Below are positions 10,481 through 63,500 of a DNA stretch of 64,000 bases, piece by piece. Position 1 is the stretch's first letter. Every line of letters begins with the position of its first letter. The position numbers and the translations under genes were made by a program. The notes under the pieces were generated by a model. That model searched no databases. It worked only from the letters and a program-made list of their open reading frames with translations, and was not told where the DNA came from. The DNA lies in the NCBI GenBank assembly GCA_014871385.1, contig CM026426.1, forward strand, positions 34,563,020-34,627,019, in the 5' to 3' direction. Origin of the DNA: Ceratodon purpureus (lineage: Eukaryota > Streptophyta > Bryopsida > Pseudoditrichales > Ditrichaceae).

Positions 10481-10632
10481 AGCATGGCACCGAATATGGA
10501 GGCAGCGACGATGAGGAGCTCATCGACACTGACATGCGAGGAAGGGATTCACCAACAACTGTTGGATTTATAGAAGACCAAGTTCTTAGCACAGTCGAAG
10601 AGGTAGGGATACAAGCTGAAGTTCACGAAGCA

Positions 10633-11046
10633 ATTGAGAACACCATTGCAGGCAGAGGAGAAGATGAGAGAGCTGCGTTGGGGCCTGGGGGACAAGATAT
10701 TTCGGAGGGTGATACACTACTGATATCCACTGCAGGTGAGGGGGTCGGGCCGGGAACAATTACAGATGTAATTGGAAACACCCTTGCGAGCGTAGGAGAA
10801 GATGAGGGAGGTGTCTTATGGCCTGGGGGACATGAACTCACGGAGGGTGATACTTTAGTGATACCCACTGCGGGTGAGGGGGATGGGGACGGAAGAATTA
10901 CAGATGTAATTGAGAACACCATTGCAGTCAGAGGAGAAGATGATGGAGGTGTGTTGGGGCCAGGGGGACAAGAGGCAGCGCAGGGTGATACACTAGTGAT
11001 ATCCACTACGATTGTGGGGGGTGGAGAGGGAACAATTACAGGACAT
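10633..11046 (+). repeat. Three 138-bp tandem repeats coding 46-residue acidic units
   Basis: Units start at 10,633, 10,771 and 10,909. Each encodes I(E/G)NT(I/L)A, then GED, PGG, (E/Q)GDTL(L/V)I and ends G-x-ITD/ITG. The period is a multiple of three and the reading frame is kept, so the repeat is part of the gene B protein. The unit is rich in Gly, Glu and Asp. I do not recognise it. Confidence 0.7.
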
Positions 11047-14399: not shown

Positions 14400-15165
14400 A
14401 TAAATCAACATGAAATTTGGTAAGACTTAGAAGTTGACATAGATTCATGTAAAAAAAAAAAGGGGAAAAAGAAGCAAACAAAAAATAGGATGATGTAAAG
14501 AGTGGGTATAGGGTGAGATTTAGAGAGACATAAAAGATGATATGGATTCATGGGGAAAAAAAAAAAAAAAAAAAAAAAAAAACAAACAAAAAATAGGATG
14601 ATGTAAAGAGGTAAGTTTATGGTGGAATTTGGTGAAACTTAGAAGATGACATGGATTCATGCCAAAAAAAAAAAGGGAGGGGGGAAAAAAGAAGCAAACA
14701 AAAAATAGGATGATGTAAAGAGTAGGTCTAGGGTGAAATTTAGAGAGACATAGAAGATGATATGGATTCATGGGGGAAAAAAAAAAAAAAAAAAAAAAAA
14801 ACAAACAAAAAATAGGATGATGTAAAGAGGTAAGTTTATGGTGGAATTTGGTGAAACTTAGAAGATGACATGGATTCATGCCAAAAAAAAAATGGGGGGG
14901 GGGGGGGGGGAAAAAGAAGCAAACAAAAAATAGGATGATGTAAAGAGTAGGTCTAGGGTGAAATTTAGAGAGACATAGAAGATGATATGGATTCATGGGG
15001 AAAAAAAAAAAAAAAAAAAAAAAAACAAACAAAAAATAGGATGATGTAAAGAGGTAAGTTTATGGTGAAATTTGGTGAAACTTAGAAGATGACATGGATT
15101 CATGCCAAAAAAAAAAAAAAAACCACATGATGGGATGATGTAAAAAGTAAGACTTACATGGCTAG
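14400..15165. repeat. Dimeric tandem array with poly-A tracts inside piggyBac
   Basis: Two related subunits of about 110 bp alternate, giving a period near 220-230 bp. Both contain taggatgatgtaaagag, a gaaattt(a/g)g block, gatga(c/t)atggattcatg and a long A run. One type has gagagacata and an uninterrupted poly-A; the other has gtgaaactta and poly-A broken by G runs. About three and a half dimers are present between the 3' end of the transposase and the left terminus. The 170-residue Phe/Pro-rich open frame on the minus strand is an artefact of the A tracts. Confidence 0.85.
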
Positions 15166-15169
15166 AAAG

Positions 15170-18160
15170 CTAGGTTCGTCGTTGTCGTTGGTTGTGGAGC
15201 TCGGTGTGCCACCTCTCAAAACACCCACGTTGGAGGCACATCCATTTCTTCCCGCAATTGTGACAATACCAATTCGGAGCATGTGTTTTACAAACAACAC
15301 ATTGCCGCCGTAAAGTGGATCTCCTAGGAACACATATCACCGGGTCCCTTGGAAGTGCGGGAAAGTCGGTTGGAGTAGAAGTCGTCCTTGGCCAACCCAC
15401 AAGTAAGGCCTCACATAGACCCTTCTTGAATTGAAGATGGGTCATAGGAGTAACCGGTCTCCGCCTCACATTGAATTGGGCCACACAATCCAAGTAGTAA
15501 ATATACATATTCACCACCGACATGTCCAAGAGGAAGAAAAAAATGCGATGCCACCATTTGTGACTCCGGACTTGGCAACTATAGGATGCCCGGAGTTGAT
15601 CCGCGACGTCAACCCCCCTCATATGAGTTGTATACTCTAATAGAACCGGTGAGGTTTGAATGAATTCTCGAGTTGCACCATTTCGCCGAGGAACCACCAC
15701 AACCTTCTCACATGGAGCTTGAATCGGTAAAGCATGGGTAGAAATAAGTCGCACCGGCTTCTTATCTTTCCACATTACACATGAGATAGTCCCGGAGTCA
15801 TGCATTCTCCATAATGTTGTGCCTTGGGGCACATTCTTGAGTGCACTTGTGTTTTTCAAACACAATGGAAGGCCAATCCGATTAGCCCGTATGGTTCCAC
15901 TTGCATACACTCCCTTAGCTAAAAGTGTAGTGAAAAGTCCGATACTAGTAAAGTAGTTATCCATAGTGACACAATGGCCTACACCCCATAGGCCATCAAG
16001 CAACCTTAGAACTACGTTATGTGCCAATCGTGCATCCCGATGTAATATTGGTTGTGGCTCTTCTAATGGAGGAGGATTTATCCCATTGTCTTTCCCGCAA
16101 TATATCTCAAAGTTCCATACGAATTTAGAAGTAGAACATGCCAAACACCACACTTTCAAACCCCACTTTTGGGGCTTTTTTGGCATGTATTGGCGAATTG
16201 GGGAATAAGTCCCCTTGTATCTTATCATCATTTCATCAATTGTAAGAAATTTCCCCAAACACCATGCCATTTTGCATCTCTCACGAATTGCATCAACAAG
16301 CCACCTCGTTTGACCAATTTTGTCATAGCCCGGATCATCCCTAGAAATCCCATCCATATTTGTAAGATGCAAACACCTCCTAATTTCCTCATACCGGCGC
16401 CTACAATATATGCTTGATATAACGGGGCATTTGAAAAGGTCATCCCGCATCCAATAAGTCCTCAAGTTGGGTTGAACCTTCAAACCCATAAATAATGCTA
16501 GTGCCATGAATGCTTTGAGGCCACATATGGTCAAATTCTCCCACTTAGGACCACCCTTGGTATGCCCGAAATCATCTAGAGGAGCATTAGCATACCGATT
16601 TGTCTCCTCCACAATGGTAGATAATATTTGGGGAGTCCAAAATAATGTAAATAATTCCATAAAACTTGGTAAAACACGGTGGTTTCGAGATGTGCCTCTT
16701 CTAAGACCCGAAAATGGGTTAGGCATAGGACTGTACATAATTCTTGGGTTTCCCCAAGTTGAATCTCTAAATTCAAATCGCAGCCCTTCTCCTTCTTGGC
16801 CTAATCCCTCACTGTCCCCACCATCACTATCTGAGGCAAAGTCCATCTCTGGAAAATCCTCACTATCCCGACCATGCGCATTACCAATTCCACCATCATG
16901 CAATCTTTCCCTTCTACGTCCTAAATTCCCACCACGGTTATTGTTAGGCAGTCGCTCCTCTTCATTATTCTGGTCACCAATTTCTCCAAAATCAGGACTT
17001 GGCTGCTGCTGAAAAACACCATCAAAAACGGTCGGGTGGCTGTCACCGGGGTGCAAGCCATCGTCGCCATGCTTATACCCATGCCCATCCAAAACAAAAT
17101 TAGAGGCCAGGTGGGAAAAGCCCTCAACGCCACTATTCCCTCTGCTGAAAAAAGTATTCTGGACCGGTTCCCCTCCCCCCGCGTCCCCACCATGGCTTGG
17201 TTCCCCTCCCCTCCCGTCCCCACCATGATGGGGTTCCCCTCCCCCCACATCCCCGTCTTCTAACGCTGTGACGCGTGGCAGAGAAGCCCCGCCGAGGCTT
17301 GGCGCGGTCGACCAGTCTGGCACCCACGCGGGTCTCGCCCGGTCCCCGCCGATGCCCAGTTGCCCCCCGCCTTCGGCACTGCAGGCCGGGGTCGCGGTTG
17401 ACGTCGACGCCCCTTCGGCGCCTCGACCTCCCGACTGCAGGCTCCCTCTCTCCATTTCGGTGCCCCCGCCCCTTGCTCCTTCGACGTACACTCCCCCAGC
17501 ATCCTTTCTGACATTTCTCCGCTTCATACCTCTCCTCCCGTAATTCCTAGCTTGTATCAAAAGTTCTGGTGGCCATAGCATATTTTCAAGTCCTCCTCCA
17601 TATTCATTGTCAGAATCCGAATCTGTTGCATCTAGAAATTCGTCTTCACTTGAGTATTGTGCATGAGCTTGCTCTTGGGAAGGCAAATAGTTCCCATCAA
17701 ACACAATTTCAGTATCAGGTAGATCAAAAGTCTCCACAGTAGGTCCCATGTCTGGAAGCTCATCGATCTGCACAGGTGAAAATTCGTCATCGTAATCAGA
17801 GGGAGAGGTGGGTGGACTCAATGCTGCCTCTGGTTCTTGCTGAAGTCTTGAGCTCCGGCGCACTGGAATCCCCTCCCACTCCATCTGCACCCAAATTTCA
17901 CACGTTAGGTTCATGAGATTACACAGGGTTTGAGAGGCTTTGAGAGGCTTCGGTTTTACTTTGCTGGCAGGTTTTGGAACTACTGTAGGCTCTACAAGTC
18001 CAGTCGTTGCATCTGTTATAGTCCTAGGATTGCCTCTGTATTCTGTGCAACAAGTGCTCGACACCAACATGTGCCAGGTTAGTTTTACACTTTGCATGAA
18101 TTCTCTGAACAGAAAGTTCACCTCCTTTGACCGCTTCGACGATCGCCTCCGAGGCGGCAT
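15170..18160 (-). CDS. piggyBac transposase, intact
   Basis: A 996-codon frame. DDE-type transposase that cuts and pastes the element at TTAA. The N-terminal third is acidic and low complexity; the transposase domain starts near PNPFSGLRRG. The three catalytic aspartates align as D642 (LTIDEMMIRYKG), D734 (VTMDNYFTS) and D851 (MRGVDVADQLR), spaced like the D-D-D of piggyBac. The C-terminus has the cysteine-rich zinc-binding domain starting at C954 (C-x2-C, C-x2-C and further Cys/His). At 996 residues it is longer than the about 600 of insect piggyBac because of the N-terminal extension. Start is uncertain: ATG at 18,160 gives the longest frame, but a splice acceptor (GGGTGCAG) precedes an internal ATG at 17,884 (MEWEGIPVRRSSR). 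The real N-terminus may therefore start there or be spliced from the upstream ORF. No stop or frameshift seen. Confidence 0.93.
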   Translation of the reverse strand: MPPRRRSSKRSKEVNFLFREFMQSVKLTWHMLVSSTCCTEYRGNPRTITDATTGLVEPTVVPKPASKVKPKPLKASQTLCNLMNLTCEIWVQMEWEGIPVRRSSRLQQEPEAALSPPTSPSDYDDEFSPVQIDELPDMGPTVETFDLPDTEIVFDGNYLPSQEQAHAQYSSEDEFLDATDSDSDNEYGGGLENMLWPPELLIQARNYGRRGMKRRNVRKDAGGVYVEGARGGGTEMERGSLQSGGRGAEGASTSTATPACSAEGGGQLGIGGDRARPAWVPDWSTAPSLGGASLPRVTALEDGDVGGGEPHHGGDGRGGEPSHGGDAGGGEPVQNTFFSRGNSGVEGFSHLASNFVLDGHGYKHGDDGLHPGDSHPTVFDGVFQQQPSPDFGEIGDQNNEEERLPNNNRGGNLGRRRERLHDGGIGNAHGRDSEDFPEMDFASDSDGGDSEGLGQEGEGLRFEFRDSTWGNPRIMYSPMPNPFSGLRRGTSRNHRVLPSFMELFTLFWTPQILSTIVEETNRYANAPLDDFGHTKGGPKWENLTICGLKAFMALALFMGLKVQPNLRTYWMRDDLFKCPVISSIYCRRRYEEIRRCLHLTNMDGISRDDPGYDKIGQTRWLVDAIRERCKMAWCLGKFLTIDEMMIRYKGTYSPIRQYMPKKPQKWGLKVWCLACSTSKFVWNFEIYCGKDNGINPPPLEEPQPILHRDARLAHNVVLRLLDGLWGVGHCVTMDNYFTSIGLFTTLLAKGVYASGTIRANRIGLPLCLKNTSALKNVPQGTTLWRMHDSGTISCVMWKDKKPVRLISTHALPIQAPCEKVVVVPRRNGATREFIQTSPVLLEYTTHMRGVDVADQLRASYSCQVRSHKWWHRIFFFLLDMSVVNMYIYYLDCVAQFNVRRRPVTPMTHLQFKKGLCEALLVGWPRTTSTPTDFPALPRDPVICVPRRSTLRRQCVVCKTHAPNWYCHNCGKKWMCLQRGCFERWHTELHNQRQRRT

Positions 18161-50340: not shown

Positions 50341-51939
50341 TCTCTCAGTGATGTTGTCCTCACGCTACATAGGAAAGGTACGGTCAAGCAAAGATGTGTG
50401 CATTTTAGGTACGGTACGTGAAAAACAAGAACAAAAACTGAATATAAATTGACAATGATGATTCGATCATAACTTTGTGTTCCAACAATATAAACTTAGG
50501 TAAAAAATTTAAACAAACTATGACTGCACTAAAAATCCTTTATATTTTTAGACCTAGAAAATCATGAAATATATAATAAAACAGAGAAATCGTACCTCAA
50601 CAAGTACGTGGGAGTTTGATACGCACCTGGAGGCAAAATTGCGAGAGGATTAAGTCCGGTCCAATTTCACCCTCCTGCACAATACGTGCTCGAAACATAA
50701 CAAAACTATGAGGATATGGTGTCGAAATTTCCCACTCTCAACGATGACGTTCTATGGTCGGTGTGAGAAAGACTAGCAAAAGTAGTGAAGAATTTGAGTC
50801 TGCGGAATCATATAGGACAAGAGAGGTATTCTCTGAAGTGCTGAATTTACGGGACAGATCAATGGAGCCGGTATTGGACCCGAACTGATCCATTAGGCTT
50901 ACAAAATCTAACGCTTGGATTTATGTGCACTTAGACCATAACTTAGTGATCCCTGTTCGAGGGTAGCTTGTACGTGAGCGCAGAGCGCAGAGCGGAGAGC
51001 GGTGAGCGCAGATTTGGAGAGCGGAGAGCAGAGAATGGGGGACAGAACCTAAAAATAGCACTTTTTTAACTAAGAATAAATTATAAAATTAGAAGATTCG
51101 AATATTCTTAGTGTATTTTTGGAAATGTACTAATTTTAGTAATTTAATTGACCCTATAACCGTGGACTAATTACAGTATTTTCATTGAATTTGTAGTTCA
51201 TATTATCTTTTCTTGGTGATTAATTTTTTAACGTGCACCTAGTACTATGCTCCTGCTCCTTCTAACTAGTTCAGGCATACAGTAATTCCCATTATCTCCT
51301 TAAATTTATATGCAAAATACTACTTAAAATGTATTGGTATTGAACCACTGAACAGGGATCAAGTAACATTTAATTTCGTAACATTTTCTTAACATTGCTA
51401 GAATTCATCCACCATAGTCTACATGCCTTTTTCCTTTTTTTTGTATATTTTTTATTTTTTTTGATATTTGTCTTGTATTTTTCATAAAATTTTCTTTATT
51501 CTATCTATCTTATTAGAGGGGTCAAAAGCCTCCTTTCATTTAATTCTCTCCTTCATTTTATTTTCACAATCATTTTATTTTCACGTTCAATTTGTTAATC
51601 TCCTTCATATTATTTTCAACCTTCATTTTAAATATTGCTATTCTTTACTTTAATCTATTTAATTTCAATTTATATAATTTGTTTTTTTTTTTTGTTTTTT
51701 TAATTTTTTTTCATTCTTTATTTTTAAAACAAAAATTTAGATGCAAAATGACCTCTGCTAAACCTTCATCTTTTTCCATTTGGTTTAGGAGGATGACAAC
51801 TTTTAAATGAATGAATAGCCGATTTTCAAGGGCGCCAAGCATCTTCTTCAGGGATATTTAAGATAAGAGTAGGGAATGTCTCTGCCTCTTTTGTGTTGGT
51901 GTTATGTGAAGCTCTTTTCCGTAGTGCGGGACAGCAGTT
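50341..51939. other. No gene recognised
   Basis: AT-rich. Contains a short degenerate GAGCG(C/G)AGA-type repeat at about 50,974-51,033. The reading frames at 51,468-51,810 are T-rich low-complexity sequence and not credible genes. Confidence 0.5.
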
Positions 51940-52392: not shown

Positions 52393-52588
52393 GACATCTA
52401 ATAACAAGTATATGTTTGCTGTAATAAAAGATACATGTCAGGGGATACGAAGTATATAGTGCACTTGTTCAAGATAGAATGTTTTCAAATAGAGTGCAAT
52501 TAATGTGAACGACAAAGCTCTTAATATAATGAAAAAGTCAATACACCTTCTATATTGCTGACTTAGTACATGGGATATTACTAAAATA

Positions 52589-52837
52589 TGACCATATTCG
52601 TTATTTTGAGACAATTTCAGAACTTTGAGACTTTTTGCCTACAATTTCAGCAATTGTTTTTAGACAATTTGAACTTTTTTTCGACTTTCTAATTATAGAT
52701 TATCCTCGAATCGAGGATAATCTTCCCATATATAGTCAAAACGTTTTTGACAAATATAGAATCAATCAAGAAATCAATGAAAAAGCTATAGTCAAGCATT
52801 AAATTGAGACTATGAAAAGTCTCAATATAATGAATAT
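52589..52837. mobile_element. MITE-like inverted-repeat segment
   Basis: About 250 bp with inverted ends (ccatattcgttattttgaga at 52,589 and its near complement at about 52,817-52,837; three mismatches in some 20). It encloses a perfect palindrome with 12-bp arms GATTATCCTCGA (52,698-52,709 and 52,711-52,722). No coding. It sits just downstream of the MULE transposase. Confidence 0.5.
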
Positions 52838-52906
52838 GGTGTTAAATCATTCACTACGTGACAAATGGCCATTGTGGAAATGGCAGTTGTAAAGTAGGAG
52901 GGCTAC

Positions 52907-55900
52907 CTACTTCTTCGCCAAGGGGTGACGCAAGATTCCACTCTCTAGGAGAAGCTTGACCTCGTTGAAGCTAAATAAAGGCGCATGGATGAAAAGCTCC
53001 GCTTCGGGATCACGGTTGCAGACCTTCAAGAGTATGTAGTATAGGTGCTTACAATACGTGAACAGAGTCTTGCCACGGAACGTAGTCATCGTCTTCTTGA
53101 ATGCTGGGCAAGTGCAACCAGGGTAAGAACTGATGGTAATCTGGTACCGCGTGATGTGTGGAGCGACGCCCGAATCCAGCCCAATGATGCAACCGTGGCC
53201 CGGCTCAGGTATCATGGTGACGGAACGGAGGCGCGCTTTAAGAGACTCGGAGGAGCCCATGGAGAGTCGCTGCGCTTGATTGGGACGAGTGGCAGTGCGC
53301 TTCACCATCTTGCCGTCTCTCTTCCCTGGGTAGCGGTCAGCGTCTGCAGGGACTGGCAGCGAGCTGAGATTTGCAGGGGGCGGGGCACAGGAGAAGAGGC
53401 GTCTTGGGGAGACCGGTTTCTTCTGCGGAAGTTGAAAGCCCGCTGCTTCGAGGGCAAGAATCTCAGTAAGTTTTAGGTTAGTACCTAGTTTCACTGGCCA
53501 CACCTCTGGAATGGAGGGGAATTCCTGGTCCTTTGAGTAGTGTGCTACCCACTTGCGCTTAGAGCCTTTCACGCAACGCTCGATATCGTCGGAGTAGAAG
53601 AAGAACTCAGTCTTCTCCACTAGGTTCCTGCGATAGTTAGTCCAGAGCCCAGTGTAGGTCGGTGCAGCTGTGCAATGGGGCCCCCTGACGATTCTCTCAG
53701 TGCACTTCTTCTTCGTTTCAGCTCTTTGGGCCCAGCAGCACTTCGCAGAAAGTTTGTGAAGTCTCGAAATGTGCCACTCCTTCACGTCCACCTTGGTTCC
53801 TTCAACCGCGTTGACATGGCGAATGCCGCCCTTGTTCACAGGTGAAGGTAAAGGGGAATCAACTTCCTGGGCAGGAGGTTGGGTACATTGTACCTCGGTG
53901 TCGTGTTCGGAGTCGTCTTCCACAATGACGGGCATCTGCATAGGGCGAGCCCTGACGGCACGTCTTGGGCCTCTTGGGCGTGAGAAGTTGGTCTTATCCG
54001 GGCGATGAGACTCTTCGTCAGCTCCGATAAGGACGTCGGCTTTTCGCTTCTGTGAACCGAAGACTTCCGCTCCTGGCATGATAGGCTGACGGGTGCAGAA
54101 CTCATCCGCGCCTGGCATATCGAGCATGGGCTTGTCGAGCAGTGTAGGATTTCCCCATTTCTTCGCGTTGCGTTCCGCCATCCGAAGCCTGAGTTCCTTC
54201 TTGGATGGTCCTGTTCCGCCGACGTCACCTTTGAGGAACTGGTAGTAGTTGACAACCTGTAGAAAAGCCCGAACGAAATCGTCCACGGTAGCAACGTACA
54301 GGTCGTTCCCATTGTTTCCTGAAGCTTGGAGCCACTTGTTGTGAACTGTTTCGGCGAGGTTACAGGTGGGCATCTCTGTGAGTTCTTCTTTCGTGAATTT
54401 CTGCAGATTTGACAGTAGGTGCTGTTAGATTCACGGATTAGAGTTCTGTAGGTTAGGGCTAGGAAACCAGTATCAAAAACATCAAAACAGAGTGCAGAGA
54501 TAATACGTCGGTCATGAATCCCCCCCACTGGCGGAAGCGGTGGTGCCAGAATGACAGCCACTGATCGAGTTTGATGAGCCCGCTCTCGCCAACGACCCCG
54601 GTGGATGCCCACCATGCTCGCAACGCGTGGTACAGAGTTTCCGCCTCTGCCATGCTGGTCGCATTCTTGTACTGAGTGCACATCTTCTTGTGCTGTTCCC
54701 AGAGTTCTTCGGGGAAGTGCTTCTGCGTATACGCCACCATGTTCTGAGTCCAGTGGAACAAGCACGACCTCTCCCGGTCCTCCATTGGGTCCTCTTTGTT
54801 GCCATTGCCGTAAAGGATTCGCACTGCATTCCAATTCGCCTGTGCGTTATCCGCCATGAACCCCTTGAAGTTCGGCGCTGCAACGCCATTGATCTCCATG
54901 ACCAGGTTCAGGTTTTTCCAGAAGACGAGCTGCACCTCCGTGTCCTCGGACTGCATGTCGCAATTGGCGATTGTCATCACGCGGCAGTAGGTGGCGTCGT
55001 ACACATGGCACGCCATCGTCGACTAGTCTTTGACGCGTTTTACATGGTCGAACATGATCCATGCGTTCTCCAAATCGCCACCAGCTTGCATACGGCTGAC
55101 CAAGTCGACACCACTGCCCGGCCTGACCTCCGACATCTTGAAGACAAAGACTTTGTCACGCATGGATCCCTGACCAGGAAACCTATTCTCCTGGACATAC
55201 GCCCAGAGACTGTTACCACGGAGCTTGGTGATACCGTCCATGATTCCTTACCTTACGAATTTTTTGAAAGTGGCGACTTTGTTGCGGATGTTGGGCGACG
55301 CCATGTCTTTGCATCGATCCAGAACAGGAACTAGCTCCTCCATCGTCAGTTTCCTCGGTGGTGCATCCTCGGGCTGTAGAAGGTAGCTCCCGATGAGGAG
55401 TTTGCTCGCCTCCAGGACAACGGCGCTCTTTGTTGCTTTGTTGTTCATCTCAACCTGCTCTTCTATTAAGCTACTAATCTCTGCTTTAGAGTCTCTGTAG
55501 TCTCCAACTTTCACTGGATGATCATGTGTTCCTATGTGAAAACAAGCTCTAGTCTGATTCGGTTTGCCCACAACGTAATAAATCTTAGCCTTGCATGTAG
55601 CTACACATGATGGAGGTTCTTTAGATACCTTGCACACTAGCGTCGAGTCAGATGGAGGAGGCTGATCCATGAGAAAAGCTTGCAGGGTACACCCTTCGAA
55701 CTCAGTCTCGTTAACCTCGGAGATCTTGGGAACACGCTTTAGGAAGTCACAGTCCTTGTTGCTGCAACGCAACCATCCGACGCAGGTGGAACTTCGAAAA
55801 GACAGTCCGAAGTCGTTTTTGATGTTTGTTGTGATGGTCTTGGTCCACAAGTGTCCGTCGTATCGTTTGTCCATTCCCTGCATAGACTTGGCGGCGAGCT

Positions 55901-56662
55901 TAGAGGAACCTGCAGCAGCTGGGGGCAACTCAAAAAGAACCGGACCATCAAACTTCGCAGGCAAGTACTCTACTCTCTCGTGTCTAATAGTGGAATAGTC
56001 TATCTTCTTCAAAATGTTTTTGGACCCACGCGTCTTAGCAATCTCTTTAAGGAGCGGAACAATGCTAACTGTGACCTGGGACAATGGAGGAGACACATTG
56101 GAAGGAGGAGCATCTCCATGGACCTTAGGCACCAACTTCACGGGACTGACTTCGTCATCAGAAGAGAGAGATATGACGGTCGGAGGAGGTTTCTCTACAT
56201 CGAAGTCTCGGTACCAGGCTCGACTTTGACTTTGACATCACGAGGTAAGGGAGTCTGAATTGTGCAAGTAGAAGAGCGACGGGGGGTGAGGATCTCAGTG
56301 GATGCAGCCATAAGAGAATCAGTAAGTCCATAGACTCTATAGGATCCAGGGAGGAGTCTCCACTGCAAAATGTTGTTCTTATCTCTCACTGAAGGTTGCC
56401 CGAGGGTGTGGGTAACCTCGGCAGTAACGTCATCAAAGATCTCCTCCTCTATACTGATGGAATCCTCTCGAAAATGGAATCTGAGACTGAGGCGAAGAGA
56501 GGACACCGTAGCTAGACCATCGTCATCTACGCGAAACCTAAGAGGGATGCCCATGCCTTGGGCGTACAGACAGACCATCCCTATATTTGCAGGCAACTCA
56601 GAGATACTAGAGGAAGAAGGGAGAAGAGTGAGTGTACTAGCCAAGCTGTATCGCGAGAGCAA
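52907..56662 (-). pseudogene. Mutator-like (MULE) transposase with SWIM zinc finger, disrupted
   Basis: Reads from 56,662 to 52,907 on the minus strand. The N-terminal part is disordered. A conserved region follows (RYDGHLWTKTITTNI, NDFGLSFRSSTC, TRACFHIGTHDHPVKVGDYR), then the transposase core (GDLENAWIMFDHVKRVKD, ACHVYDATYCRV, FMADNAQANWNAVRILYG, ERSCLFHW, FWHHRFRQWGGFM). A 106-bp intron (54,401-54,506) joins in phase to KFTKEELTEMPTCNLAETVH. Near the C-terminus is a SWIM finger, C-x-C-x18-C-x-H (GCTCPAFKK to YCKHLYY). MULE transposases mobilise elements with long inverted ends; the SWIM finger is typical of MuDR-like proteins. Breaks: a frame change near 56,200, TAA at 55,248-55,250 and TAG at 55,023-55,025, all inside otherwise smooth frames. 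Element ends were not identified. Confidence 0.85.
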
Positions 56663-57405
56663 AGTGAGAGGAATGATGCATCGCTGTTGATCATTTTATT
56701 CAAATTGGAATGTCCATGTGGACGACTAGGTAATGATTCATTCTGCTACGTAACGAATGTATGATTTAAGAGAGCCGGCGCTAACTGATTAGAATGTTAC
56801 TTTTTGCAGGCCCATAAATATGTGGTAAGATTTTCAGAATATTGCTTTAAGTGTTTAAACCGTGGAGCAGATTCTATTTTTTATGGGGTTTGATTGGATT
56901 AAAAAGAGCCGTCTTTTCCTTCTGCATTTAAAACAATAAATATATAGAATTTGAATTAATCATATTCATGCATTAGTTATATATATATAGGACTAATGCA
57001 AGCATATGATTTATTCAAATTCTATATTTTATTCAGTGTTAAGGTTCCTCAATTTTCATAATAGATTGCTGGACAGACAGACCACCCAAATTTCCCAGGT
57101 AACTGAGGTAAGTAGTGAGAAGAGTGAGTGAAGTAGCGAAGCGATATCATGAGAGCAAAGTGATTGGATTGATGCATCGCTATTGATCATTATATTTAGG
57201 TTGGAATGTCCATATTTGATTTTTGATTTAAGAGAGACGGCGCTAACTAATTTGAATGCTGCTTTTTGCAGGCCCAAGTATAAAAGGTAGGATTTTATAG
57301 AACTAAGCATATAATGTTTGAATCGTGAACCCGATTCCATTTGATATGTGGGTAGGTGAGATTAGAGTGAGCCGTCAGAGCCTTCTATATTTAATACAAG
57401 TATAC
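56562..57405. repeat. Direct duplication of the MULE 5' region around a palindrome
   Basis: 56,562-56,936 and 57,070-57,405 are diverged direct copies (cagacagacca, gagaagagtgagtg, gatgcatcgct-ttgatcatt, tttttgcaggccca, gagccgtc-ccttct). The first copy includes the start of the MULE frame at 56,662. Between the copies lies an inverted repeat (56,934-57,033). Confidence 0.75.
56934..57033. repeat. 100-bp near-perfect palindrome, MITE-like
   Basis: Arms 56,942-56,977 and 56,992-57,027 are inverted complements with about three mismatches in 36. The loop is a TATATATATATA run. The match extends weakly outward. It may be a short foldback element inserted between the two direct copies. Confidence 0.8.
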
Positions 57406-57566
57406 CATTGCACAATGAAATCTATTATTATTTTGCGGACATGTTTTTCTTCTTCCAATTTAGATTTATCAGATGAACTTTAATTCAAAATGCATTTATT
57501 TATAGTCTAGGCATAGGGAAAGTATTCACGACTGAGAGTGAGGGGTTGAAGGTTTGGGATATATAA

Positions 57567-60500
57567 GATGAAGGGCAGTTAGAAGGAGAGCTATTTTGTG
57601 ATGAGAGGGGACGATTCTTGTTAGGTAGACACATGAAGGAGAGGGGAGGATCATCTCCCTCTAGTTGTGTCACCCGTAAACCTAGAAGAAAAGCATATGG
57701 TACGGATTTTACGAATAGGAGAGCGAGGAAGAGGAGAGAGACACGTAGAAAGGCGAATTCTAGAGGCAACATTTCGGGTGCACCTCTGAAGGTTCGAGGA
57801 GCTGGGCTGCCTTTGGCAATTAAATTCTGTAGCATTCGTAAACTCATTCTGGAGTCGATCATAGCGGTAGAAGAAGAGGTTTTAGGGGACAACTTAGTTG
57901 AGCATCGGGAGCATGATATAATTAATAGCGGAGAAAAACAGATAGAGATGACGGAAGAACTCGGGCTCAGTTCCAGTCCACCTTTAGAGACACCACAACC
58001 TTCTTTCGGTTTTAAGGAGTGTTCGATAAGAGGCACAGATTCACATTCGGGCGAACATTCTAACACGGATGTGGTAAGTTTCGTAATTGCTACATTGAAT
58101 TATCTGAATGTTAATTATGTATTTTGTAGAGTAACATTCAGTTCTTTGCAATGTCCTCGCGTTTTATTTTTTTACTGATAAGAATTACGATGTTGCATCA
58201 AACATAGATAATGTTAAGAAAAAAAGATGCGAGGTAGAAATTATGGACATTGCCTTAAATTTATGTACAGATTCTCAATTGGTTTAGGATTGATCTAGAG
58301 GTCGTACAGGAAAAGACGCCAGAAGTGGATGCGGGCGAGGAGTCAGATCCTGATACTTTGATAAGAGTGGCTCGTAGAGCAAGGCGAGAAATTATGGAGG
58401 CGGGCGAAGGTGGGGAAGAAAACGCTGCAAGGCTAGCGGGACGAGGGGACCCCGGGAGTCCATCCCAGAGGAGTTTGAACAAAGACCAATTGCAATGTAC
58501 AATGGCGGGGCCCCTTGATGACAACGAGTGTCAGGAGATAGAGGTCGCGGATCGAGGGAGAAGGGTAGGTGGTCCAGGGAGAGGGAGAGGTCGAGGAACT
58601 CGAGGGAGGAAGAGAAGTGGGGGCACATCACAACTCCAACTTGCGGCATCGGAGTTTGAGCATTCTGTTGGAAGAATGGCGGCAGGTGGAGAAGACCGTG
58701 GGGTTGTGGAGATGAGCAGTGCAGGCGGAGAGACAGATCGTGATGGAGCCACAGAGGAGGTAAGGGTTCGGATTTCCGAAGTTGGGTTCATGAATATTGC
58801 TATGGTTGAGGTTTCGGATTCGCATATTGTTCAGCACAAGGTCGTGAAAGGAGAGATTCGAATTGCAAGTGTCCCTGCAGCTCAGTCTGCGAATGCAGAG
58901 GTTGCGAGTTGGGCAGTGATTGTTGAGATGCTCGCATTTGTTGTGGGTGGGGTTTCGGAACTAGAGGGAGTGTACACTAGTTGGGGTTTTGGGGAGGTGG
59001 GGGGAGGCCGCGAGGGCACATTGGAGTGGGATGCGACTGCCATGGCCGCGAAGGCAAGGGGGCGCGGGTTGTACATTCTGTACAGAATGTGGGCGTTTGG
59101 GGAGGTGGAGGGAGGCCGCGAGGGCACATTGGACTGGGATGCGACTGCCATGGCCGCGAAGGCAAGTGGGAGTGTAGACCCACATTCTGTACAGAATGTG
59201 GGGAAGACGCAGATGGGGGAGGTGGAGGGAGGCCGCGAGGGCACATTGGAGTGGGATGCGACTGCCATGGCCACGGAGGCAAGGGGGCGCGGGTTGTACA
59301 TTCTGTACAGAATGTGGGCGTTTGGGGAGGTGGAGGGAGGCCGCGAGGGCACATTGGAGTGGGATGCGACTGCCATGGCCGCGAAGGCAAGGGGGCGGGG
59401 GATGTACATTCGGTACAGCATGTGGGGATTTGGGGAGGTGGGGGGAGGCCGCGAGGGCACATTGGAGTGGGATGCGACTGCCATGGCCGCGAAGGCAAGG
59501 GGGCGGGGGATGTACATTCTGTACAGAATGTGGGCGTTTGGGGAGGTGGAGGGAGGCCGCGAGGGCACATTGGAGTGGGATGCGACTGCCATGGCCGCGA
59601 AGGCAAGTGGGAGTGTAGACCCACATTCTGTACAGAATGTGGGGAAGACGCAGATGGGGGAGGTGGAGGGAGGCCGCGAGGGCACATTGGAGTGGGATGC
59701 GACTGCCATGGCCACGGAGGCAAGGGGGCGCGGGTTGTACAATCTGTACAGAATGTGGGCGTTTGGGGAGGTGGAGGGAGGCCGCGAGGGCACATTGGAG
59801 TGGGATGCGACTGCCATGGCCACGGAGGCAAGGGGGCGCGGGTTGTACATTCTGTACAGAATGTGGGCGTTTGGCGAGGTGGAGGGAGGCCGCGAGGGCA
59901 CATTGGAGTGGGATGCGACTGCCATGGCCACGGAGGCAAGGGGGCGCGGGTTGTACATTCTGTACAGAATGTGGGCGTTTGGGGAGGTGGAGGGAGGCCG
60001 CGAGGGCACATTGGAGTGGGATGCGACTGCCATGGCCACGGAGGCAAGGGGGCGCGGGTTGTACATTCTGTACAGAATGCGGGGGTTTGGGGAGGTGGAG
60101 GGAGGCCGCGAGGGCACATTGGAGTGGGATGCGACTGCCATGGCCGCGAAGGCAAGGAGGCGGGTGTTGTACATTCTGTACAGAATGTGGGCGTTTGGGG
60201 AGGTGGAGGGAGGCCGCGAGGGCACATTGGAGTGGGATGCGACTGCTATGGCGGGGAAGGCAAGTGGGAGTGTAGACCCACATTCTGTACAGAATGTGGG
60301 GAAGACGCAGATGGGGGAGGTGGAGGGAGGCCGCGAGGGCACATTGGAGTGGGATGCGACTGCCATGGCCACGGAGGCAAGGGGGCGCGGGTTGTACATT
60401 CTGTACAGAATGCGGGGGTTTGGGGAGGTGGAGGGAGGCCGCGAGGGCACATTGGAGTGGGATGCGACTGCCATGGCCGCGAAGGCAAGGAGGCGGGTGT

Positions 60501-63500
60501 TGTACATTCTGTACAGAATGTGGGCGTTTGGGGAGGTGGAGGGAGGCCGCGAGGGCACATTGGAGTGGGATGCGACTGCCATGGCCGCGAAGGCAAGTGA
60601 GAGTGTAGACCCACATTCTGTACAGAATGTGGGGAAGACGCAGATGGGGGAGGTGGAGGGAGGCCGCGAGGGCACATTGGAGTGGGATGCGACTGCCATG
60701 GCCACGGAGGCAAGGGGGCGCGGGTTGTACATTCTGTACAGAATGCGGGGGTTTGGGGAGGTGGAGGGAGGCCGCGAGGGCACATTGGAGTGGGATGCGA
60801 CTGCCATGGCCGCGAAGGCAAGGAGGCGGGTGTTGTACATTCTGTACAGAATGTGGGCGTTTGGGGAGGTGGAGGGAGGCCGCGAGGGCACATTGGAGTG
60901 GGATGCGACAGCTATGGCGGGGAAGGCAAGTGGGAGTGTAGACCCACATTCTGTACAGAATGTGGGGAAGACGCAGATGGGGGAGGTGGAGGGAGGCCGC
61001 GAGGGCACATTGGAGTGGGATGCGACTGCCATGGCCACGGAGGCAAGGGGGCGCGGGTTGTACATTCTGTACAGAATGTGGGCGTTTGGGGAGGTGGAGG
61101 GAGGCCGCGAGGGCACATTGGAGTGGGATGCGACTGCCATGGCCGCGAAGGCAAGGGGGCGGGGGATGTACATTCGGTACAGCATGTGGGGATTTGGGGA
61201 GGTGGGGGGAGGCCGCGAGGGCACATTGGAGTGGGATGCGACTGCCATGGCCGCGAAGGCAAGGGGGCGGGGGATGTACATTCGGTACAGCATGTGGGGA
61301 TTTGGGGAGGTGGGGGGAGGCCGCGAGGGCACATTGGAGTGGGATGCGACAGCCATGGCCACGGAGGCAAGGGGGAGTAAAGACCCACATTCTGTACAGA
61401 ATGTGGGGAATACAAATATGGGGGAGGTGGAGGGAGGCCGCGAGGGCACATTGGAGTGGGATGCGACTGCCATGGCCATAAGGGGAGGGGGGAGTTCTAT
61501 GTACATTCTGTACAGAATGTGGGGGTTTGGGGAGATGGGGGAAGGCCGCGAGGGCACTCTAAAGTGGGATGCGCCTTTCATTGCAATGAAGGGATGGGGG
61601 AAGTGGATGTACATTATGTACATGATGTCGGGATTTGGGGAGGTGGGAGGTGGCCGCGAGGGCACATTGGAGTGGGATGCGACTGCCATGGCCATTAATG
61701 CAAGGGGCCGGGGGGTGATAATTTTGCATAAAATGTGGGGGTTTGGGATGGGGAATAGAGAAGTTTCCCACCTCATGACGAATTCTTTTTTTTGGATTGC
61801 TACTTATTTTTTTTTTAAGCTTATAAGTGGTTTGCTGTTTGTAATATAGGAGTTCACAGATCAACTCACAGCGACTGAAGGTGATGGTCCAACTCCTGCA
61901 GAAACTGAGGTAATTTAATCATTTTTGCTTTTGTAATCAACATTGCATTCTTCTTAAATCTTTCTTAAGTAGTTTTGAAAACTAAAATGGTAAATTGACA
62001 TTGTCTTTGTCTCTATGCTTGCAGGTATTCTCAGATGCACCCTTGTCCATCAGTTCCCCTATCTCAGTGATCAATGTTTCCGACCTCTCGGATTCATTTG
62101 ATCAGCCCCATTTATGTAGGTGTGATTTAGGAAGCCCTGTAGATGTAGGTAGTGGACCTCTCGAGGTCCACTCCCCTCAGTACATGCCTACGTCTCCTGT
62201 CTATGAGCCTACATCCCCAGGCTACATGCCTACTTCTCCACGGCTTGGTACCCCGCCGATGTCTCCACCTTCTCCTTCCTCGCCTATTAGAGTGAGGAGG
62301 CCAGCCCATGTTGTCTTCGCCCTTCCGGCGATACTACCATGCCCTGTCCAACAGACCAGGCGTTTTTGGAGGAGGCGCCGTCATTGGAACTGTAGACAGG
62401 CTAGGGAGTATTATAGCCGTGCTCCACGTACATAGTGGCCTATGTACTACTTCCTATTGTTTGGGTTTAGAGTTGGTTTTGCAAATGAGATGTATCAGTT
62501 CTGAAAGCTATTGGTTTATTCATCTTCGTAATTGTTTTACTTATTCTCATCCTTGTCTTCGGATCAAATTTGAAAATACATGACTTTTGGCAGGTAACTC
62601 AGACACAGGATATGTTGCCAGCGCCATCATGTCCTCCTGATTTGACGAATGTAGTGGACAGTGAATTGGGACATCGGGTACAACACAAAGTGGACTCCAT
62701 AAGCGTCATCAATAAGCTCCGAATACTTCCAAAGTCGAAGTCGCGTATACTAGTTCCCCTTTGCAGAATGATCTCTATGGCAAGAGTGAGACCTGTAGGA
62801 GAAATGGGAGTTCAGCATTTGGAGCGCGAGTTTGTCAAAGGATATAGAGATGGAGACCGAGTCATGTACATTTCCATCTACGACCATGAAGAGAAGACAT
62901 CCGACGTCACAGAGGAGACCAAGGCTGAGTGGAGCCCTTGTTGGCAAAAAGCGAATGATGCTTTCGAAGATGAGCTCTTGGCCGACTCGGATTGGAAGCA
63001 GTTTTCTGGGAAGATGTTCTATGTCTGGGAAGGTAACCATCGCCTTGCGGCATGGTACAGACATATCAACAAACATCACAGCGAAGATCCAGCATGGCAC
63101 ATTTCTGTGCATTGCATTGTTCTTGATCCCCGCGGTCATGTGGGAAATCTTCTACATGCCATCCACGACATAAACTGGTGAGGATTGAAACCCCTTATTT
63201 TGTCCATTCCTCTTGCACGCAGGTTGAACTCGATCTTTATGCATTGTACTAACCATCGTCTATTCGTACAGATCTACAGAAAATGATCATGTGAAGAGTA
63301 ATATTCCGGCAAAACTTTATCGAATTCGCTCATTCGGTGTGATGAAATTGGAGGAGTTCAAGGATCTCCTCACACCAGCGGAGTATCATATATGTTTGAA
63401 CCACAAACCGTCCAATCCATCCTGGTTTACATTGCCAACCAAAGTCTTCATCGCGTTTCTTTATCGTGTAAGCACTTCTTTCTCCCCTCATCAAACTTCC

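Follow-up and report, generated by a model that had tools for sequence, protein, structure and literature searches.

The VANDAL elements of Arabidopsis, together with their VANC proteins, provide a well-studied example of transposons that release only themselves from silencing. As described in passages of one report (PMC5735166), the targets of VANC21 and VANC6 are short motifs that form tandem repeats in noncoding parts of VANDAL copies, introns and terminal stretches included. The same passages describe a rapid gain and loss of these repeats, the use of different motifs by related families, and highly variable regions in the VANC proteins that are thought to set target specificity. We analyzed a 64,000-nucleotide stretch of the moss Ceratodon purpureus (C6:34563020-34627019 of a 362-Mb assembly; hereafter the window, whose positions serve as coordinates throughout), which carries a Mutator-like transposon with a helper gene beside its transposase gene and, in a predicted intron of the helper gene, a tandem array of palindrome-bearing units. 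No description of such a system in mosses was found among the search listings of an open-access library. By analogy with VANC, we propose that this array is a cis-acting self-recognition array, putatively bound by a dimeric protein that the element itself encodes; the case for this explanation and the case against it seem to us evenly balanced.

The array occupies 58988..61747 on the plus strand, with a period of 108 and 25.1 copies. The original prediction, made from the letters of this DNA, had described 25 units of 108 or 117 bp, and we found 19 units of the shorter and six of the longer kind, counting a last unit whose length was assigned by script and not measured. Six perfect 24-bp palindromes with the half-site CCCACATTCTGT were likewise recovered, the first (CCCACATTCTGTACAGAATGTGGG) at 59179..59202 and the others starting at 59620, 60277, 60610, 60943 and 61384; the dyad core is the 18-bp ACATTCTGTACAGAATGT. 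From about 59981 the units form 333-bp higher-order blocks (108+108+117 trimers), whose mutual identity of 98.8-99.7% bears out the recent amplification that had been suggested. Other details of the prediction needed correction. Perfect palindromes of at least 16 bp were present in 19 of the 25 units and not in each (24 bp in six units, 18 bp in ten and 16 bp in three, with six units lacking them). GTAC occurs 42 times instead of nearly 50, and its pairs, found in 18 units, are 9 bp apart instead of 11 bp (the six 117-bp units have one GTAC and the last unit none); this spacing does not support the proposed phasing by helical turns. The reading frame of the palindrome differs between 108- and 117-bp units, and therefore its letters appear to be kept as DNA. 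A 9-bp periodicity of the unit body was considered and set aside, as the lag-9 match (0.38 and 0.41) was weak and not outstanding. Rfam and tRNA scans gave no match.

The array is probably intronic, as had been predicted, in view of kept GT/AG borders and noncoding statistics. The predicted phase-0 intron spans 58760..61849 on the plus strand (GAGGAG/GTAAGGGTT ... AATATAG/GAGTTCACA) and has a GC content of 60% vs 42% in the window. Both the donor GAGGAG/GTAAG and the acceptor TAG/GAGTTCA were present in 7 of 10 main copies (the window copy and nine others with the same type of array) and in 6 of 10 diverged loci. The main copies outside this count were C5 and C6_56, which carry insertions, and C3, in which a diverged donor (GACGAG/GTAAGG) is an approximate match. 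The diverged loci outside it were L036, which has no acceptor exon, and L029, L031 and L032, in which the dyad array lies directly 5' of exon A8 and not in the intron between exons 2 and 3. Arrays may thus sit at more than one position within the helper gene.

It could be supposed that the array is an exitron, retained and translated. The unit lengths are multiples of 3, alleles that create stop codons are scarce (1 of 88 in 108-bp units, below the expected 5%), and the exon-2 frame stays open to the last codon of the intron in 2 of 7 main copies, the window copy and C13; in the window it runs for 1,029 codons and ends at the TAG of the acceptor site. However, alternative alleles in the array are distributed evenly over codon positions (28/29/31 and 13/15/21). 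When codon phase was set from exon starts in the same analysis, third positions held 17/28 of the variable alleles in exon 2, 15/27 in exon 4 and 15/28 in exon 5. In the remaining five of these seven main copies, between 3 and 14 stops interrupt the exon-2 frame, the intron length is not a multiple of 3 in 4 of 7, and an early stop at intron codon 34 is common to all 6 diverged loci with both borders. In counts that took just the top local alignment of each piece, out-of-frame indels were absent from exons 3-6 and the transposase pieces of aligned copies; exon 2 had one in C10 and two in C3, and none vs L030 and L033. A coding repeat was rejected on the flat codon-position profile, the stops and the loss of frame, and we regard translation of the array as highly improbable. 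The array-bearing intron looks noncoding, a prediction drawn from these sequence statistics. Modal unit lengths and dyad spacings in L029-L046 and the main-family introns are multiples of 3 and mostly of 9, despite this noncoding appearance of the arrays (60, 84, 99, 108, 117, 120, 135, 171, 189, 225, 306, 333, 360 and 381); the exceptions are single units of 107, 109, 110, 112, 116, 118 and 143 and a spacing of 44.

The observation that carries our explanation most directly comes from other copies of the helper gene. We tested the expectation that, were the array a platform for binding, copies outside the whole-array matches would carry a different array in the same intron. Eight loci were picked by hand from the matches to helper exon 5, across classes of identity and frame length, and the side 5' of exon 5 was taken (L039-L045, and 1,610 bases for L046). 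An acceptor exon with an array upstream was found in 7 of the 8; L042 lacks this intron and is excluded from the comparison. Of the seven, L039, L041 and L043 show the donor, L040 and L046 are covered on the acceptor side only, and L044 and L045 show the acceptor with exon-2 matches upstream of it. The arrays differ in unit and in sequence. L039 holds 9 exact copies of GGCATTCTGTACAGAATGCC, in L040, 28 of the 29 units (117 bp each) carry GGCATTCGGCACCGAAAGCC, L041 and L044 have 171-bp units with GCATTCGGAGCCGACA, L043 and L045 have 225-bp units with GGCTTTCGGATCCGACACC (L043 also has about four 108-bp units), and L046 has 13.5 units of 108 bp with GATTCGGGGCCGAAAG. Aligned with blastn (word 11, E 1e-4), the eight introns, that of the window included, gave three matching pairs: L041/L044 over 464 bp at 72%, L043/L045 over 76 bp, and L040/L046 over 60 bp, which by eye is the 3' end of the intron.

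All eight introns nevertheless contain the dyad TTCKG-NN-CMGA (TTC[TG]G..C[AC]GA). The dyad was first scanned on whole stretches for five loci, and a repeat on introns only gave the same result. When 2,269 random dyads built to this form were scanned, none occurred in 7 or 8 introns, and the four that occurred in 6 were all variants of this motif. The pattern was fixed before L044, L045 and L046 were seen, and it matched all three, with 2, 4 and 5 strict sites. In the 60,914 bp of the window outside the intron, the strict motif was found 0 times on the forward and once on the reverse strand. The half-site also varies symmetrically: a T.A pair has become G.C on both sides in 5 of the 7 other loci, which fits the expectation for symmetric recognition. 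Across subfamilies the versions are TTCTG..CAGAA, TTCGG..CCGAA and TTCGG..CCGACA. A variant core, GCATTCTGTACAGAATGC, occurs 104 times in the genome vs 0 for its control; among 50 of the 104 sites there were 15 clusters, of which 12 lie directly 5' of a listed match to helper exon 5. The persistence of the dyad in 8/8 introns and its shift of frame between unit types uphold the claim that it matters as DNA.

A host transcription factor could also bind the dyad, in which case the transposon would be carrying an intronic enhancer. The conservation of the dyad within so GC-rich an array is compatible with this, and the GTAC center of the main type could presumably suit SBP-type factors. However, this center is not retained, since the two central bases vary by array (TA, CA, AG, AT or GG), and a host factor of fixed specificity is not expected to allow half-site switches that are specific to subfamilies. 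We consider a host factor rather unlikely.

Conservation of the core was also assessed among arrays of the main type. A whole-array search of the genome returned 53 matches. Counting the window itself, 11 of these span 1.2 kb or more; the main set comprises the window copy and nine others, with the long copy C6:85780245 left out. In the stretches seen of these 10 copies, the number of units ranges from 11 to 26. As the original prediction had envisaged, a genome-wide search was informative: exact matches to the 18-bp core number 204 across the 362-Mb assembly, far above chance, vs 0 for a letters-reversed control, and 164 of the exact copies lie within 20 main-type loci. The prediction had further held that the palindrome is conserved among diverged units, which would show as fewer substitutions there than in the rest. 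Between families this stands: once L034 is placed in register, seven family representatives share one and the same core, while unit bodies average 72% (a misregistration of L034 by 9 bp had given a printed mean core identity of 0.937). Within the window copy the difference is not significant, with core variation of 0.039 vs 0.059 in the rest for 108-type units (P 0.25) and 0.000 vs 0.029 for 117-type units (P 0.09), in a test that found its sites by core similarity and so favored core conservation. When 190 units of the 10 copies (150 distinct) were found by their bodies, variation was lower in the core (0.054 vs 0.143), but the core ranked only 33rd among 91 sliding 18-bp windows. Therefore further parts of the unit are conserved too, and conservation of the core is clear only between families.

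These data bear on whether the array is simply a selfish minisatellite, which grows by slippage and unequal exchange and in which the dyad persists by shared ancestry and homogenization alone. The near identity of the 333-bp blocks, the range in unit number and the equal conservation of other parts of the main-type unit are all consistent with it, as is a second word, GGCCGCG, which is common to the introns. However, the dyad is retained in all eight introns, of which only three pairs align, and we hold this account to be improbable. The array is in any case not a stand-alone minisatellite but part of a mobile element with many copies, a membership that the original prediction had missed.

A structural role, as hairpins of the intron RNA or as the DNA cruciforms that had been raised, was considered as well. 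A 117-bp stretch folds better than its shuffles (z -3.05), as does L029 (z -2.72), and some flank changes are symmetric (CCC/GGG, TTCG/CGAA). However, a 108-bp stretch does not fold better than its shuffles (z -0.14), and pairing in the flanks is weak (P 0.01, 0.26, 0.06, 0.93 and 0.93 at offsets 1-5). Moreover, 85 core pairs were changed in the 20 main-type loci and none was compensated; all were broken. The main-type core therefore seems to act as a recognized sequence and not as a structure, and a structural role is extremely improbable.

Insertions were found at two arrays. The array of the C5 copy (L011/L012) holds a retroelement-like insert flanked by 848-bp direct repeats, a repeat that also matches L036 at 93%. 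The array edge of C6_56 carries an end, AATATGGTGTT, similar to that of an insertion resembling a miniature inverted-repeat transposable element in the window copy (52588..52843, about 252 bp, with imperfect inverted ends and not in the copies compared). For these two copies we considered whether the array marks a junction of chimeric elements. We rejected this, because the inserts lie at the array edge and pieces of array recur further out at C5:6346388 and C6:56592526; therefore the inserts went into the array.

The element itself extends from 50958 through the end of the window (64000) and measures 16,073 bp in total; its similarity to other copies spans 50958 to 67030, so that the right end lies 3,030 bp past the window (L009 position 3030). 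Both ends are common to copies on C7, C10, C13 and C3. The window copy is flanked by a 9-bp target duplication, ATCCCTGTT, and 9-bp duplications that differ from site to site were present in all 5 copies for which both ends were available, the left border of C13 being set by alignment. The ends are long terminal inverted repeats (TIRs), similar GAGCGGAGAGCG-rich stretches in inverted orientation. In a genome search with the left TIR (50958-51105), the best 40 of 1,270 first-look candidates all had at least 97% identity, and in a search with helper exon 5 the best 150 of 1,902 candidates had 84-100% amino acid identity and lay on C1 to C13. Because of the many candidates of both kinds genome-wide, the array-bearing transposon is a large family. 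The first-look TIR candidates far outnumber the long array copies, which suggests that many derivatives sharing the ends of the element exist.

Two genes are arranged divergently, the transposase on the minus and the helper on the plus strand. The 3' exon of the transposase (52910..54373) is an open frame that ends in a SWIM-like CxCx(n)CxH motif, and its 505-aa frame was open in all 6 copies inspected. The 5' exon (54462..56662) has stop codons in the window copy and is open for 745 aa in C10 and C13. A Pfam scan of the two C10 transposase frames gave no match to a transposase model of Mutator-like elements (MULEs) at E 10, and the label Mutator-like therefore rests on the ends and the target duplications. 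By eye, the transposase contains motifs that we take to be DDE- and SWIM-like. The C3 copy (L017/L018) is a mosaic, with about 78% identity at window 57356-58531 and 96% and 93% in the flanks, which suggests exchange between subfamilies.

The inner edge of the left TIR region (50958..51046, plus strand) resembles the palindrome half-site. Its sequence is AGAGAATGGGGG in the window copy. In C7 and C10 it is ACAGAATG, and there this half-site is present at the inner TIR edge of both ends; 0.005 occurrences are expected in two terminal 150-bp stretches. The array might accordingly be read as a set of extra copies of a TIR-recognition motif that titrate or recruit the transposase. However, the TIRs hold a half-site only, and it counts as a single origin because the TIRs are copies of each other. 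At the left end it differs in the window copy (AGAGAATG) and in C13 and C3 (ACAGAGTG), and inspection of the inner edge found none at the right end of C3. We judge such a transposase-binding array to be very unlikely.

The helper gene is predicted to begin with two fast-evolving exons, an exon 1 region at 57567..58074 with a basic stretch and an R/G-rich exon 2 at 58271..58759. Predicted exon 3 (61850..61909) encodes 20 conserved aa. Predicted exon 4 (62025..62434), which ends in TAG, contains three heptads of the type YxPTSPx (YMPTSPV, YEPTSPG and YMPTSPR, at 62181-62245) that resemble those of the RNA polymerase II C-terminal domain (CTD); its match to Pfam RNA_pol_Rpb1_R (E 8e-4, 20.0 bits) is slightly below the cut-off of 20.3. 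Predicted exon 5 (62594..63170) appears ParB-like by eye (EGNHRLAAW), but Pfam, PHROG and NCBIfam gave no ParB match in the helper protein. A PDB sequence search with the exon-5 region reached a best E of 0.14 and was dismissed as not credible. Later predicted exons run from 63277 to the end of the window (64000), with a methyltransferase-like part past it, at about 1220-2150 of L009; all of these exons are on the plus strand. The joined C10 exons matched N6_N4_Mtase with E 6.7e-8 (33.2 bits vs a cut-off of 26.7), while the single window-copy exon scored 22.9 bits, below that cut-off, and the C-terminal domain matched a PHROG DNA methyltransferase at 6.9e-10. The domain reads DIPEN where we presume that DPPY is expected, and methyltransferase activity is therefore doubtful. 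For most of the helper gene, the scans found no Pfam family. In L041, L043, L044 and L045, exons 1 and 2 diverge fastest (39-73% and 41-59% identity), and exon 4 keeps 90-94%.

On this basis, the helper product would be the most likely binder of the array, with a variable N-terminal part that carries the basic stretch, the CTD-like heptads and a methyltransferase-like C-terminal domain. A dimer of this element protein would sit on the dyad, and the tandem sites would provide a high local occupancy that is limited to the copies of the element. By analogy with VANC proteins, which bind their motif and remove DNA methylation, the bound protein may keep the element clear of host silencing marks. 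The arrays would be built and rebuilt by unequal exchange, and subfamilies would change to new arrays yet retain a version of the same dyad. It is also possible that the binder might be the transposase, given the half-site at the TIR edge.

Several points weigh against self-recognition of this kind. Five arrays had already been seen when the motif was defined, and L046 is the only fully independent test because L044 and L045 resemble L041 and L043. The full symmetric 12-mer TTCKGNNCMGAA is present in just 4 of the 8 introns, and the pairs L041/L044 and L043/L045 hold the shorter form of the dyad only. Strict sites are sparse in some arrays, with 2 in 3 units in L041, 2 in 3.5 units in L044, and 5 in about 13.5 units in L046, where allowing one mismatch raises the number to 12. 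GGCCGCG and a G-rich word, GGGGAGG, are likewise present in 8/8 introns. To these are added the results within the main type, where the core of the window copy did not vary significantly less than the rest and changed core pairs were not compensated, the open frame and scarce stop alleles of the array, and the changed, missing and not independent half-sites of the TIRs. In addition, Pfam scans of the helper protein gave no match to the VANC homology domains DUF1985 and DUF287, and its DNA-binding part is a putative one. A further-reaching version of self-recognition would make this a second, independently built system by which plant transposons achieve sequence-specific self-recognition and anti-silencing. 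In it the helper of a moss MULE reads the dyad of its own intron, while its N-terminus and the array co-evolve among subfamilies, much as VANC and VANDAL do in flowering plants. In that version the helper has a bacterial-type DNA methyltransferase domain, possibly dead, together with CTD-like heptads. We regard it as possible and, on balance, doubtful.

Elsewhere in the window, a 996-aa open frame on the minus strand (15170-18160) contains the piggyBac-type transposase domain DDE_Tnp_1_7 (E 3.5e-77). A tandem repeat of about 219-224 bp with 3.2 copies lies at 14414-15117, and a 138-bp tandem repeat at 10632-11041 lies within a 217-aa open frame.

The analysis presented here yields a DNA motif that can be tested directly by experiment and a protein that is a candidate for binding it, in a family whose helper-gene copies lie on C1 to C13, including C6 (110 Mb). 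GC-rich intronic minisatellites of this class would be explained as parts of transposons. If self-recognition holds, this moss counterpart of VANC/VANDAL, convergent or ancient, would reveal whether MULEs in general use fast-evolving arrays for self-specific anti-silencing. Like VANDAL21/VANC21 and VANDAL6/VANC6, as portrayed in parts of PMC5735166, it is a Mutator-like element with an extra gene beside the transposase and with a short motif repeated in tandem within an intron, in arrays that turn over fast and differ in motif between subfamilies. Unlike the VANC21 motifs YAGTATTAY, which are arrayed in a single orientation according to the same parts of that source (PMC5735166), the moss motif is a dyad. 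It also differs from VANDAL/VANC in its host, a moss, and in its helper, which has a methyltransferase-like domain, gave no match to DUF1985 or DUF287, and is known here from its sequence. We therefore describe the system as VANDAL/VANC-like in its probable working; since the scans of the helper gave no sign of VANC homology, we do not class it as a member. With maize MuDR and other MULEs, whose target duplications measure 8-11 bp and usually 9, it shares 9-bp target duplications, TIRs and, by eye, a SWIM-like transposase ending. Unlike MuDR, its helper gene for the most part gave no Pfam family, and MuDR is not known to contain an internal dyad array. The clustered palindromic sites and the ParB-like motif seen by eye resemble ParB/parS partition systems, from which it differs in the lack of a ParB profile match, in its tens of tandem sites and in being a eukaryotic transposon. 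Finally, the 333-bp trimers of 108+108+117 resemble satellite higher-order repeats; unlike satellites, which are chromosomal, this array is interspersed within a transposon gene.

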